A stretch of 64,000 nucleotides of DNA from a bacterium (lineage in GTDB: Bacteria > Cyanobacteriota > Vampirovibrionia > Gastranaerophilales > Gastranaerophilaceae). A model generated the notes under the pieces. That model was given only the letters and a program-made list of their open reading frames with translations, was not told the origin of the DNA and did no database searches. Location of the stretch: contig JAGAJM010000006.1 in NCBI GenBank assembly GCA_017626055.1, positions 248,001 through 312,000 on the forward strand, given 5' to 3'. This document shows positions 1 through 7,321 of this stretch, piece after piece. Made by a program: the position numbers and the translations under genes. The stretch's first letter is position 1. Each line of letters opens with the position of its first letter.

Positions 1-528
1 GAAAAACTTTTAGATGAGCTTGTAAACAGTACATCTTACGATATTGTTGTTCGTCCACACCCTCAATCGATGTTGGTTGAAAAAGATTTAATCGAAAATT
101 TGAAAAATAAATATATTGATTGCACAAGATTAAAATGGGATTTTTCTGCTAATAACCTGCAAGTTATGGCAAATAGTGATATATTAATCAGTGATTTTTC
201 AGGAATAATGCTTGATTATGCATTTTTATTTAAAAAACCATTTTTATATGTTGATACAAAAATTAATTACGAAATGTATGATTTCTGTGATTTAGATGAA
301 GAAATTCCTTGCAAACATAGAATTGCAAACGAAATAGGTAAGAAGTTAGATATCGATAATGGAGATGTTGAAAATATTGTTGAGATAATAAATCAAGTTA
401 AACAAGATGAAAATTTGTCAGAAAAGATTGAGAAAGCCTCTGATTATACTTGGTTTTACAAGGGTGATGCTGCAAAAAATATTGTAGATTTTCTGGTTGA
501 AAAACAGTTGGAGGTTAGTGAAAAATGA
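1..528 (+). CDS. CDP-glycerol glycerophosphotransferase family protein, C-terminal part
   Basis: The frame is open from base 1, so only the C-terminal 175 residues are present and the start lies outside the window. The visible part has the RPHPQ motif (residues 18-22 of the fragment) and a SDILISDFSG segment followed by DYAFLFKKP. Both are hallmarks of the TagB/TagF-type glycerophosphotransferase superfamily, which moves glycerol phosphate or a similar polyol phosphate from a CDP donor onto a growing wall or capsule polymer at the cytoplasmic membrane. The stop codon overlaps the next start as ATGA, so the two genes are translationally coupled. The exact donor and acceptor cannot be told from this fragment. 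Confidence 0.85.
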   Translation, partial: EKLLDELVNSTSYDIVVRPHPQSMLVEKDLIENLKNKYIDCTRLKWDFSANNLQVMANSDILISDFSGIMLDYAFLFKKPFLYVDTKINYEMYDFCDLDEEIPCKHRIANEIGKKLDIDNGDVENIVEIINQVKQDENLSEKIEKASDYTWFYKGDAAKNIVDFLVEKQLEVSEK

Positions 529-3239
529 TAGAATTCTTTTTTAATTTAATTGTAAAACCTCTGCAAATGCTTTTTGAATTTTTATTTTCAAATGTTTATA
601 ACATAACTGATAATATTATTTTATCGATATTTATTTTGAGTTTTATTGTCTCAGTCTTGTGTTTGCCATTATATTTAAAGGCTGATGAATTACAGGAAGA
701 AGAAAATAAAATACAAACCAAACTTGCACCTAGAGTTAAGTCTATTAAAGAAAATTTCAAAGGTGATGAGCAACAGTTATTATTGCAAACTTATTATAAA
801 CAGAATAATTATCATCCGATTATGGGATTAAGATTATCTTTGAGTTTACTTTTGCAAGTTCCAATATTTATGGCTGCATATTCTTATTTTAGCAGTTTAG
901 GGTTGTTGGAAGGTTTATCTGCTGGAATTGTTGGGAATTTAGCATCTCCTGACGGATTATTACAGATTCAGAATTATAAAATAAATATCTTCCCGATATT
1001 GATGACGATAGTAAATTTGCTGGCAGGGTTTGTATATTCAGATTCTAAAAGTTTTAGTCAAAACAAAGTTTTGGTAATAGTAAGCCTTGTCTTTCTTGTT
1101 TTATTGTACAATTCTCCGTCTGCGTTAGTAATTTATTGGTTATTTAATAATCTATTTTCTTTGATTAAAAATATCTGTTTGCTAAAAATATCAAGAGAAA
1201 ATCTTATTAGATATTCATTAGCAGTTCTTTTTATTCTTTATTGTGTGATTGCTGAAAATTATATACTTCCTATTGTAGTAGTAGGTATCTATTTTGCAAA
1301 TTTATTCTTTGGGAAATATTTTAAGTCTATCGATTTTGATTTCGATTATAAATCCCTTTTCTTGTTGGGAATAACAACTTGTTGGGTAATTTTAGGCTTG
1401 CTTATTCCTTCAAATGTGATATCTACTTCATCTTTAGAATTCTTATTTTCTGATACTACACCTTTTGGAATTCTTTCTTCTACGGCAACTATATTTGCTG
1501 GAGCAATAATATTTTGGGGGTTGTGGTTGTTCTATTTTGCAAGTAAATTACAACAAAAACTTCTTTCAATAGGTGTGTGTATTTTTTTAGTGTATGCGTT
1601 ATGTAATTTGTTTATCTTGAAAATTCCATTAACAATCTTGTTGACAACAATGAGTTTTGAAACTTTGAGTATGGATTTTAATGTTTATTCAATAGCTCAG
1701 GTTATTTTATATACCTCAGTAATTTCTATTTCTATCATTTTTATATTGAGAGAAATATTTAAAAAGCAATCTGTATGTCTAATAAATAAGTTTATTTTAA
1801 TTGTTTTAATTAGTACCTTTGTTTTATCTGTTTATAATTATTCTAAAATAGCTTCTGTGGTATTTAGCCACAAGACAAATGAGAAAGCTTTACAAGAACA
1901 AAATAAAAATTATATTGAATTAAGTAAGACTCATAAAAATGTACTTATCTTATTTGTAGATAGAGCTATTGGCGCTTATATACCTTTAATATTTAATGAA
2001 CATCCTATACTAAAAGACCAATATAAAGGTTTTACATATTATCCAAATACATTATCTTTTGCTGGTTATACTTTGCTTGGGTATCCAGCTATTCTTGGGG
2101 GATATGAATATACTCCAATGCAAATGGATAAATCAGACAAGCTTTTTGAAGAAGAATTTAGAGAATCTTTAACTGTTCTACCTTTGATATTTAAACAAAA
2201 TCAATGGGAATCAACTGTTATAAATCCTGTTGGTGGAGAATGGGAAAGTGTGATGAATGATGGTGTAACTAAAGATGATATTGATAATTTAGGTAATGTA
2301 GGTTTATATGAAAATTCAAATATAAATCATTATAGAATCCCAAAATCTGTAATTAGTCATCTTGTTCAAGATGAGGGCATAGAAGTCGAAAGTAGCTCTT
2401 TGACAAAACGAAATCTTGTATATTTTACGATATTATCAGTGTTGCCGCCATCTGCAAGATATTATGTTTATGATTATGGTAATTATCATAATATCGACAA
2501 TATTAGTACGAAAAACAGACCTATTTATAGTGAGTTTTTCCTGAAAAATTATGCCGAATTATTATACTTGGATAAATTAACTACCTTTACTGAAAAGAAG
2601 AACACTTTTACTGTATTTAATAATGCATTGCCACATTTTCATATGTTCTTAAGGTATCCAGAGTATGATTTATCTTCTCAAAATCAAGAAGATTATGAAC
2701 CACCTGTTGCAGATGTTGGATGGACAAGAGAATCATATAATACGAATGTTGCAACATTAAAACTTATTGGACAATATTTAAGTTTCCTTAAAAAGAACAA
2801 TGTATATGATAATACTCGTATAATAATTGTTGCTGATCATGGCTTTAGAAGTATTGAGTTACCAGCGCCATTAAATAGTAAATTTCAGGAAGAAAATGTT
2901 ACACCTTATAATCCATTACTTTTGGTTAAGGATTTTGGGGCTGATAAAGAATTCTCACAAGTGGATGAATTTATGACTAATGCAGATGTTCCAATGCTTG
3001 CGACAGCGGATATATTTGAACATCCAAAAAATCCTTATACAAATAAAGAAATGAATAACAATAGTAAAAAAGATGGTGTTGTTATTGTTCAGGGTAATAA
3101 ATGGTTACCATCATTTTATTTGGGTAAAAAACAAATATTTGATAATGATACGACTTTTAATTATGTGAAAGAAGATCCTCGAAATCCTAAAAATTGGAAA
3201 ACGAATTTAAATTATGATAAGATAAAAAAATATTATTGA
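525..3239 (+). CDS. YidC/Oxa1-like membrane domain fused to a sulfatase-fold (LTA-synthase-like) domain
   Basis: A 904-residue membrane protein. Residues about 1-225 resemble the YidC/Oxa1 insertase core: a membrane helix ending in CLPLYLKA, a charged hairpin, then LLLQVPIFMAAYSYF. Residues about 226-450 are further membrane helices. From about residue 468 comes an alkaline-phosphatase/sulfatase fold, with NVLILFVDR, a Thr in GYTLLGYPA that could be the nucleophile, and the metal motif ADHGF near residue 770. In ordinary YidC the first core helix reads V-R-L before the LPL motif; here it reads V-S-V, so the groove arginine is missing. The overlap with the CDP-glycerol-type gene suggests a role in making or exporting a phosphate-rich surface polymer rather than in general protein insertion. 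The function is inferred. Confidence 0.8.
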   Translation: MIEFFFNLIVKPLQMLFEFLFSNVYNITDNIILSIFILSFIVSVLCLPLYLKADELQEEENKIQTKLAPRVKSIKENFKGDEQQLLLQTYYKQNNYHPIMGLRLSLSLLLQVPIFMAAYSYFSSLGLLEGLSAGIVGNLASPDGLLQIQNYKINIFPILMTIVNLLAGFVYSDSKSFSQNKVLVIVSLVFLVLLYNSPSALVIYWLFNNLFSLIKNICLLKISRENLIRYSLAVLFILYCVIAENYILPIVVVGIYFANLFFGKYFKSIDFDFDYKSLFLLGITTCWVILGLLIPSNVISTSSLEFLFSDTTPFGILSSTATIFAGAIIFWGLWLFYFASKLQQKLLSIGVCIFLVYALCNLFILKIPLTILLTTMSFETLSMDFNVYSIAQVILYTSVISISIIFILREIFKKQSVCLINKFILIVLISTFVLSVYNYSKIASVVFSHKTNEKALQEQNKNYIELSKTHKNVLILFVDRAIGAYIPLIFNEHPILKDQYKGFTYYPNTLSFAGYTLLGYPAILGGYEYTPMQMDKSDKLFEEEFRESLTVLPLIFKQNQWESTVINPVGGEWESVMNDGVTKDDIDNLGNVGLYENSNINHYRIPKSVISHLVQDEGIEVESSSLTKRNLVYFTILSVLPPSARYYVYDYGNYHNIDNISTKNRPIYSEFFLKNYAELLYLDKLTTFTEKKNTFTVFNNALPHFHMFLRYPEYDLSSQNQEDYEPPVADVGWTRESYNTNVATLKLIGQYLSFLKKNNVYDNTRIIIVADHGFRSIELPAPLNSKFQEENVTPYNPLLLVKDFGADKEFSQVDEFMTNADVPMLATADIFEHPKNPYTNKEMNNNSKKDGVVIVQGNKWLPSFYLGKKQIFDNDTTFNYVKEDPRNPKNWKTNLNYDKIKKYY

Positions 3240-3261: not shown

Positions 3262-3981
3262 ATGAAAAAGTTCTTATTACTTTTAGGTGTTTTATTTGTC
3301 GGAACTTGTGTTTTTGCAATAACAATTGGGGTAGAACCTCCTATGGAGTTTATGGCCGCTTTAGAAACATGTGCTAATGGTACATACAAAACGCAATATA
3401 AAGGAATGATTACATTTTATACAATCAAAGGAAAAACTCCAACGGGAAGATGTATAGTTGAGTATTCTGATTATACAGACTTCTCTCATAAAGAAACTTA
3501 TGATTTTTATATTGGTATGATGAAATCTTTTGGGCGTGGCTGGATTAGACCATCTGATATCCCAACTCAAGAGCAAATGATTGAACGAGGTTTAAAAGAA
3601 AAAACTATTACTACTTGTAAGTTCAACTCTAAAGAACGAAAAATGCTTTATACAGCTTACAAAAAACATGATGGAATCCCTTTAAGTTTATTAAATAAAA
3701 TACCATATGGTACCATTCCCGAAGGTTATTCTGACAAAAGGAGTTCTTATGATTTACTTATGATGAAGTTCTCTCATGGTCCTTGTACTACAACTTCTGC
3801 TAATAATCCGCAAGACAGTAAAGGTAGTATTTATGCGTGTGAATATGCAGATCGAACTTGTTATGTAACTAAATATTCAAATACAAGTTGGGCCGTTAGT
3901 TGTAATCCAAATATAGAAGGAAGTACACCTTGGGATACATTAAAAAAACATGTAAACCAAGGTATGTGTGAAAAATTGTAA
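3262..3981 (+). CDS. secreted cysteine-containing protein, family shared with two genes at 16384 and 17065
   Basis: 239 residues, with a signal peptide at about 1-19 ending in VFA. The start is set by GGAGG upstream of ATG. The mature part has about nine cysteines. A TTCKFNSKER segment near residue 116 matches VRCEFTKQQL and IQCNFTREQL in the proteins at 16384 and 17065. An upstream pair of cysteines about 30 residues apart (ETCANG and GRCIVEY) also lines up. The family is not recognised. A disulfide-bonded periplasmic or exported protein is likely. It follows the polymer gene by 22 bases and may be co-transcribed with it. Confidence 0.7.
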   Translation: MKKFLLLLGVLFVGTCVFAITIGVEPPMEFMAALETCANGTYKTQYKGMITFYTIKGKTPTGRCIVEYSDYTDFSHKETYDFYIGMMKSFGRGWIRPSDIPTQEQMIERGLKEKTITTCKFNSKERKMLYTAYKKHDGIPLSLLNKIPYGTIPEGYSDKRSSYDLLMMKFSHGPCTTTSANNPQDSKGSIYACEYADRTCYVTKYSNTSWAVSCNPNIEGSTPWDTLKKHVNQGMCEKL

Positions 3982-6302: not shown

Positions 6303-6803
6303 TTATTTGTTTTCAATGTATCTTAAAATAGGGTCTTGGTCTAAAGTTAGCTTAACTGTGTCTGATTTTTTCTCATATAATGGTCCAAAAATGTCATCTT
6401 CAAAACGTTCAAAATCAGGGTCAACCATTTTGAATTTGGAATCCTGTTTTGCGATTTTTTCAATAAATGCATCGTATTGATTAATCATCGCATCTTCGTA
6501 TTTTGCGATATTGAATAATTTTACTATTTTTTGAGCAATTTGTTTTGGTGTAAGTTTATCTAATTCTTTTGCACCTTGTTCGCTCATTTGAAATATTCTA
6601 TCGTGGTTCATAACAGCACTTTCAAAAAGATCCTTACCATCTAAATCGATTGAGATTGTACCATCTGGGTCTGATTTTGTTTTTGCTTCTACGATTTTTG
6701 CAACTTCTGCCCAAGTCCCTTTTTGGGTTTTTCCACCATCATAATTAAATTTTACTTTAGCTCCAAAAGCTGGATTATAATTGTTGTTAATTCCTAAATT
6801 CAT
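6303..6803 (-). CDS. hypothetical protein with N-terminal PAFGA tag, operon partner of the Ski2-like helicase
   Basis: 166 residues, charged and mostly helical, with no signal peptide or membrane segment. The N terminus reads NNNYNPAFGAKVKF, one of the short F-x-G/S/A tags shared by several unrelated proteins in this window. An acidic stretch (DPDFERFEDDIFGPLYEKK) lies towards the C terminus. It is the first gene of a two-gene unit with the helicase, whose ribosome site overlaps this stop codon. No known family was recognised. A helicase cofactor is possible but only from context. Confidence 0.7.
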   Translation of the reverse strand: MNLGINNNYNPAFGAKVKFNYDGGKTQKGTWAEVAKIVEAKTKSDPDGTISIDLDGKDLFESAVMNHDRIFQMSEQGAKELDKLTPKQIAQKIVKLFNIAKYEDAMINQYDAFIEKIAKQDSKFKMVDPDFERFEDDIFGPLYEKKSDTVKLTLDQDPILRYIENK

Positions 6804-6946: not shown

Positions 6947-7321
6947 ATGCAAGTAAACAACTCTCAACCAAGTTTCGGTTCAACCCTATTAAAACTAACT
7001 CCAGATACACCTGTCGCAAATAAGTATTTAAATAAAATTTCTCAGTATTTCGAATTAAAAGGTTTTGCTGGAGATAAGTTAGTTATGAAGCCTCAATTAG
7101 CTGCGGATCAGATTGATTTTTCTCAAGCTGCAGTAATCCCTAAAGGCAATGATTCAATGTTAATTGTTGGTAAGGATGGTGGTCCAGGTGGAGCTGATAC
7201 ATTCATTGGTAGAATCTTAAAAGAAACATTCCCTAATGATAAAGCAATTGTTTATACTGATGATATTGCACCTGTAAAAGTTGAAGGTCCAGTAATTGAT
7301 TTATCTGATATGGATTTTTAA
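6947..7321 (+). CDS. hypothetical 124-aa protein with N-terminal PSFGS tag
   Basis: A small soluble protein with no signal peptide. The start is supported by AAAGGA seven bases upstream of ATG. The N terminus NNSQPSFGSTLL carries the F-x-G/S/A tag near residues 7-9. The middle has a glycine-rich turn (GKDGGPGGAD) and the C terminus is acidic. A second ATG five bases upstream would encode only four codons. The gene stands alone between the divergent helicase operon and a clear terminator at 7343-7373. The family is not recognised. Confidence 0.65.
   Translation: MQVNNSQPSFGSTLLKLTPDTPVANKYLNKISQYFELKGFAGDKLVMKPQLAADQIDFSQAAVIPKGNDSMLIVGKDGGPGGADTFIGRILKETFPNDKAIVYTDDIAPVKVEGPVIDLSDMDF

Follow-up and report, generated by a model that had tools for sequence, protein, structure and literature searches.

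The window analysed here, a stretch of 64,000 nucleotides, begins inside a gene of the Glyphos_transf family, which overlaps the start of a gene joining a YidC-like membrane domain to a sulfatase-fold domain (hereafter the fusion). The features of this region are as follows:

1..528, + strand: 3' part of the Glyphos_transf gene (PF04464); the whole gene encodes 427 amino acids and starts 756 bases before base 1
525..528, + strand: ATGA overlap of the fusion gene and the Glyphos_transf gene, 4 bp
525..3239, + strand: YidC-like/sulfatase-fold fusion gene, 904 amino acids (P0001), a single open frame
525..1190, + strand: YidC-like five-helix domain, residues 1-222, by PF02096 match and predicted fold
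651..653, + strand: codon of S43, in the alignment column of R366, the arginine in the groove of E. coli YidC
831..833, + strand: codon of R103, an arginine specific to this family, aligned with E. coli G421 where TM3 begins and next to a 3-residue insertion
1137..1139, + strand: codon of W205, in the place of E. coli Y517, W in 68/68 fusions
1194..1901, + strand: about seven additional membrane helices, residues 224-459, by family hydropathy and the helices of a low-confidence model
1902..3236, + strand: alkaline-phosphatase-superfamily catalytic domain, residues 460-904, by profile and fold comparison
1959..1961, + strand: D479, putative first metal ligand, D in 68/68 fusions
2070..2072, + strand: T516, putative nucleophile, 68/68 fusions; aligned within the EptA motif SCGTATAVSVP
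2634..2636, + strand: H704, putative catalytic histidine, 68/68 fusions; the profile region overlaps the LtaS and MCR-1 matches
2835..2840, + strand: D771-H772, putative metal ligands, D in 68/68 and H in 67/68 fusions

The fusion had been described in the original prediction as a YidC/Oxa1 core, further membrane helices and a sulfatase-fold domain within a single frame, overlapping a gene of the CDP-glycerol-transferase type. This description holds: the architecture is recovered by Pfam, hydropathy, a PDB profile search and fold comparison, and the overlapping gene carries PF04464. Residues 32-218 match PF02096 (60KD_IMP, 81.5 bits versus a gathering score of 35), while TIGR03592 (yidC_oxa1_cterm) is a near miss just below its cut-off (83.9 versus 84.3 bits). 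The C-terminus matches Sulfatase (PF00884, 21.8 bits versus 25) and Phosphodiest (22.8 bits), both just under the cut-offs. The same architecture is found in 68 distinct full-length homologues, ruling out a chance or mis-assembled fusion; a pseudogenised YidC is likewise ruled out by the conservation of the groove neighbours and of the active site. Family hydropathy shows the YidC helices followed by about seven more before residue 440. Since the five helices of YidC end inside and an odd number of helices follows, the catalytic domain is predicted by helix count to lie outside the membrane. Directly downstream, a 239-residue protein (3262-3981) has a signal-like N-terminus and no Pfam match. 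Small proteins at 6303-6803 and 6947-7321 carry a PxFG-like motif near the N-terminus (NPAFGAK and QPSFGST, respectively), which the starts of ORFs further upstream in L003 resemble.

The predicted structure of residues 1-225 contains the five-helix YidC core fold. Compared with solved bacterial YidC crystal structures, the model reaches Z scores of 12.7 to 17.9, with values of 17.9 for B. halodurans YidC (3wo7, 208 aligned residues, rmsd 3.2) and 16.8 for E. coli YidC. In an alignment of the fusions with 19 canonical YidCs, E. coli YidC among them, S43 falls exactly in the column of R366, a groove residue described as strictly conserved (PMC8920935), confirming the arginine-to-serine replacement read from the window. 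All 19 canonical YidCs hold R or K at this position, including this genome's own, which is encoded on another contig and has R. None of the 68 distinct full-length fusions has R or K there; 24 have N, 21 S, 20 T, 2 F and 1 C. The fusion family also has two specific insertions, one of them beside R103 (R in 65, K in 2 and Q in 1 of the 68 fusions), an arginine absent from canonical YidC. In a phylogenetic tree, the fusions and their split relatives are set apart from all canonical YidCs by a branch of length 1.58 with support of 100/100.

The replacement had been taken as an argument against protein insertion, and this argument is unsupported. E. coli YidC can dispense with R366 provided that position 517 is occupied by an aromatic or polar residue (PMC8920935), and all 68 fusions have the aromatic tryptophan there. 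Loss of the arginine therefore does not by itself exclude insertion, and we rejected it as sole proof of a non-insertase role. The possibility that another helix supplies the arginine was also raised in the original prediction; a conserved arginine, R103, does exist, but it aligns with G421 at the cytoplasmic start of TM3.

For the C-terminal half, a PDB search with a profile of 52 fusions matched YidC, sulfatases, LtaS and phosphonate monoester hydrolases. Profile comparison with OpgB, EptA and the two separately encoded sulfatases gave only partial, low-probability alignments. AlphaFold modelling of the whole protein with six sequences yielded a pLDDT of 45.6, poor outside the YidC part; the catalytic domain modelled alone reached 44.0. 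The catalytic-domain model aligns to LtaS with a Z score of 9.9, tied with other alkaline-phosphatase-fold enzymes (Z about 9 to 10), and at a pLDDT of 44 we keep conclusions from such models to the level of the fold. The domain is a probably active member of the alkaline-phosphatase superfamily; it is assignable neither to the LtaS nor to the EptA subfamily.

The partner gene, read whole upstream of base 1 (L003:17245-18528), encodes a protein with a PF04464 match of 29.0 bits (gathering score 22.1) and the motifs HxxH, RPHPQ and SDFSG. Its N-terminus is an invariant Y(I/L)DPG(T/S)GS membrane segment, which reads YIDPGTGS in the window's protein. The part inside the window scores 22.9 and 16.6 bits against the TarB and TarF NCBIfam equivalogs, below the respective cut-offs of 550 and 500, and the whole protein has no TarB or TarF match at an E-value of 0.001.

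Both genes strictly co-occur in the window's own phylum: each is found in 10 of 386 genomes, these are the same 10 genomes with the genes adjacent in each, and neither is present in the other 376. Among 296 Spirochaetota genomes, the fusion is found in 68 (a count that includes two genomes, G522 and G613, with an unfused YidC-like gene), the DPGTG-type Glyphos_transf in 66, and both in 65, that is, in 65 of the 69 genomes with either gene; since the genomes are related, such counts are not independent. Three Spirochaetota genomes have the fusion without a Glyphos_transf above threshold. Of the 80 Glyphos_transf genes in this phylum, 48 have a fusion no more than 300 bp away, in every case on their own strand, and several fusions are found far from a Glyphos_transf gene. 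Fusions outnumber Glyphos_transf genes in 27 of 61 genomes and are fewer in none. This pattern suggests that one donor-making enzyme serves several transferases, which would imply a shared, diffusible donor. In four loci (L108, L102, L107, L112), two to four fusion paralogues cluster near one or two Glyphos_transf genes, which hints at multiple acceptors sharing a single donor. In genome G287 (L094:6969-8283) the Glyphos_transf is broken into two frames and the adjacent fusion is intact; a genome of the same genus has the Glyphos_transf whole.

The neighbouring genes point to the substrates of the pair. A nucleotidyltransferase is located at most five genes away in 23 of 45 loci. Neighbours include NTP-transferase/choline kinase (L101, L129, L132), cytidylyltransferase/PEP mutase (L112, L116, L137), NTP-transferase/aminotransferase (L102, L114, L117, L137) and TagD-like cytidylyltransferase/oxidoreductase (L105, L131) combinations. 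Just upstream, the window's genome carries a TagD-like cytidylyltransferase and a methyltransferase in divergent orientation, and in two relatives (L092, L093) this pair stands in line with the Glyphos_transf and the fusion. Since the neighbours span CDP-choline, CMP-phosphonate and CDP-glycerol-type activation, the transferred group appears to vary while the transfer machinery remains constant. Activation of aminoethylphosphonate by PntC-type enzymes is established, including in Treponema denticola (PMC6697681). We note that in L132 (genome G007, contig C60, 9642-12322) the module lies on a contig with a GC content of 57%, within a low-GC genome bin, and its fusion gene is interrupted by a frame change; the contig is probably foreign DNA.

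The domains are also found in other arrangements. The original prediction had considered homologues with the two domains on separate genes, and such homologues exist: in L136 and L137, a YidC-like protein (N in the groove), a Glyphos_transf and a membrane sulfatase are encoded by three consecutive genes. The sulfatase of L137 passes the PF00884 cut-off (34.8 bits), while that of L136, without a Pfam match, is assigned by position and length. The L137 operon consists of a PEP mutase-cytidylyltransferase, a TPP decarboxylase, an NTP-transferase-aminotransferase, the YidC-like protein on its own, the Glyphos_transf and the membrane sulfatase, such that the module sits behind a complete gene set for CMP-aminoethylphosphonate. 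In L131 (genome G011, contig C71, 3973-6069), a canonical-type YidC is instead fused directly to a Glyphos_transf; the gene order is a membrane sulfatase-like gene (20.8 bits, below the cut-off), the YidC-Glyphos_transf fusion, an aminotransferase and a cytidylyltransferase-oxidoreductase. Because this YidC keeps a lysine in the groove and groups with a clostridial canonical YidC (96/90, on a long branch), the locus is, by the tree, a separate recruitment of YidC; its contig may be a misbinned clostridial piece. The strongest evidence of a functional link comes from YidC being joined to each of the two neighbours in turn. In the literature searched, with most subscription papers outside reach, we found no description of a YidC-sulfatase or a YidC-Glyphos_transf fusion.

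Taken together, the dedication of the fusion to the Glyphos_transf/CDP-X pathway is well supported. Recruitment of a YidC fold to the transfer of phosphate groups, as originally proposed, is borne out by the co-occurrence and adjacency with Glyphos_transf, the CDP-X-activating neighbours and the two independent gene fusions, and also by the presence of a canonical YidC with its groove charge elsewhere in the same genome. The original interpretation is supported only in part: compared with the phosphate-containing polymer that it invoked, decoration of a glycan by a phospho- or phosphono-group agrees at least as well with the variety of activation genes (choline, aminoethylphosphonate or glycerol type).

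The family is abundant in Spirochaetota; in the window's phylum its presence is patchy. Fusions from the latter form one clade (100/100) nested among spirochaete fusions in a tree with weak backbone support, and the window's fusion gene has a GC content of 27.8%, compared with 32.4% for the window. Lower GC, nesting and patchy presence would fit a transfer in which the fusion and the Glyphos_transf moved as a unit. Searches with the fusion among plasmids, phages and viral contigs gave no matches, which leaves it unrecorded on mobile elements in these collections.

We slightly favour a three-part pathway that attaches a group X to extracytoplasmic glycans through a phosphate or phosphonate link, in which the fusion provides the membrane-crossing and outward-transfer half. 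A cytosolic nucleotidyltransferase would make CDP-X or CMP-X, and the membrane-bound Glyphos_transf would move X-P from CDP-X onto a membrane-lipid carrier in the inner leaflet. The YidC-like domain, a dedicated paralogue without the groove charge, would then act as a lipid translocator that passes the polar head of this lipid across the membrane. On the outside, the sulfatase-fold domain would take X-P onto T516 and pass it on to an acceptor glycan. For activation and final transfer we rely on the chemistry of the respective enzyme families; that the carrier is a lipid, that it is translocated and that a glycan accepts X-P are inferences. The YidC-like domain is a candidate translocator because its groove has a CDP-X-using enzyme on the cytosolic side and a transferase on the extracytoplasmic side, and because lipid scrambling is an in vitro activity of the Oxa1 superfamily, seen with E. 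coli YidC (for phospholipids) and with further insertases (PMC10491306). Against translocation stand the aromatic W205, which leaves insertase activity possible, the three genomes without a recognised Glyphos_transf and the several distant fusions, and the groove lysine retained in L131. We give an even chance to the wider reading that this YidC/Oxa1 branch has turned into a dedicated translocator of lipids and provides the flippase so far missing from a widespread CDP-X surface-glycan pathway, with YidC drawn in at least two times.

Other roles of the YidC-like domain would account for part of these observations. It could be an insertase or chaperone reserved for folding the polytopic transferase, and perhaps the membrane anchor of the Glyphos_transf as well, with the sulfatase domain drawing on an ordinary phospholipid as donor, like LtaS, OpgB and EptA. 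The modelled YidC fold is intact, W205 keeps the groove viable without the arginine, and LtaS and EptA work without a translocator; however, the genome already has a canonical YidC, the domain also exists as a free gene in the operon and was independently fused to the cytosolic Glyphos_transf instead, and the accompanying Glyphos_transf and CDP-X genes would be left unexplained. We therefore consider this role unlikely. Fusions to either partner would also suit a role as structural platform, in which the domain thins the membrane or lets the Glyphos_transf dock by the transferase and an unlinked flippase moves the donor, and proteins of the Oxa1 superfamily do perturb the bilayer. Sharing of the donor, with one Glyphos_transf for several distant fusions, disfavours obligatory docking, and no other translocator was recognised beside the module among the proteins scanned, which makes a platform quite improbable.

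The closest to the original proposal is a teichoic-acid-like phosphate polymer, polymerised inside by the Glyphos_transf, exported as a chain through the YidC-like groove and attached or extended by the sulfatase domain. The Glyphos_transf does belong to the family of TagF polymerases, and LtaS ties for the best structural match of the low-confidence model. Yet many modules lie beside choline or aminoethylphosphonate activation genes, and such groups decorate glycans and cannot polymerise via two hydroxyls; the partner is moreover far below the TarF and TarB equivalog cut-offs. We regard polymer synthesis as very unlikely.

If translocation and outward transfer by the fusion are correct, the family offers a case of a dedicated evolutionary use of lipid scrambling by the YidC fold, and would account for how decoration of the surface with phosphonate and phosphocholine is completed in these bacteria. 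The annotation as 'YidC insertase' is misleading for such proteins.

Several known systems share parts of the module. PntC loci have CMP-aminoethylphosphonate genes of the same type as those beside the module; the neighbours named there are LicD-like phosphotransferases and glycosyltransferases, with YidC and sulfatase unmentioned (PMC6697681). TagF/TarF-type CDP-glycerol glycerophosphotransferases have PF04464 and the HxxH, RPHPQ and SDFSG motifs in common with the partner, which differs in its YIDPGTGS membrane start and its occurrence beside choline or phosphonate activation genes. With the YidC/Oxa1/Alb3 insertases the fusion shares the five-helix core, the C1 hairpin and the conserved Y-W motif of TM6; unlike them, it has N, S or T in place of the groove R/K, carries two insertions and R103, is joined to a transferase, and is paralogous to the genome's own YidC. 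LtaS, OpgB and EptA likewise combine membrane helices with an extracytoplasmic alkaline-phosphatase fold, a threonine nucleophile and an Asp-His metal site (putative in the fusion), but sequence similarity is marginal, the first metal ligand is Glu in LtaS and EptA versus Asp in 68/68 fusions, and the fusion adds the YidC-like front domain and the Glyphos_transf partner. GtrABS and Arn-type systems carry out decoration in three steps, with a cytosolic synthase of a lipid-linked donor, a small translocator and a periplasmic transferase. We know of no such system with a YidC-family protein or a sulfatase-fold transferase. The pathway proposed here would follow the same three-step logic, with two of the three parts combined in one polypeptide.
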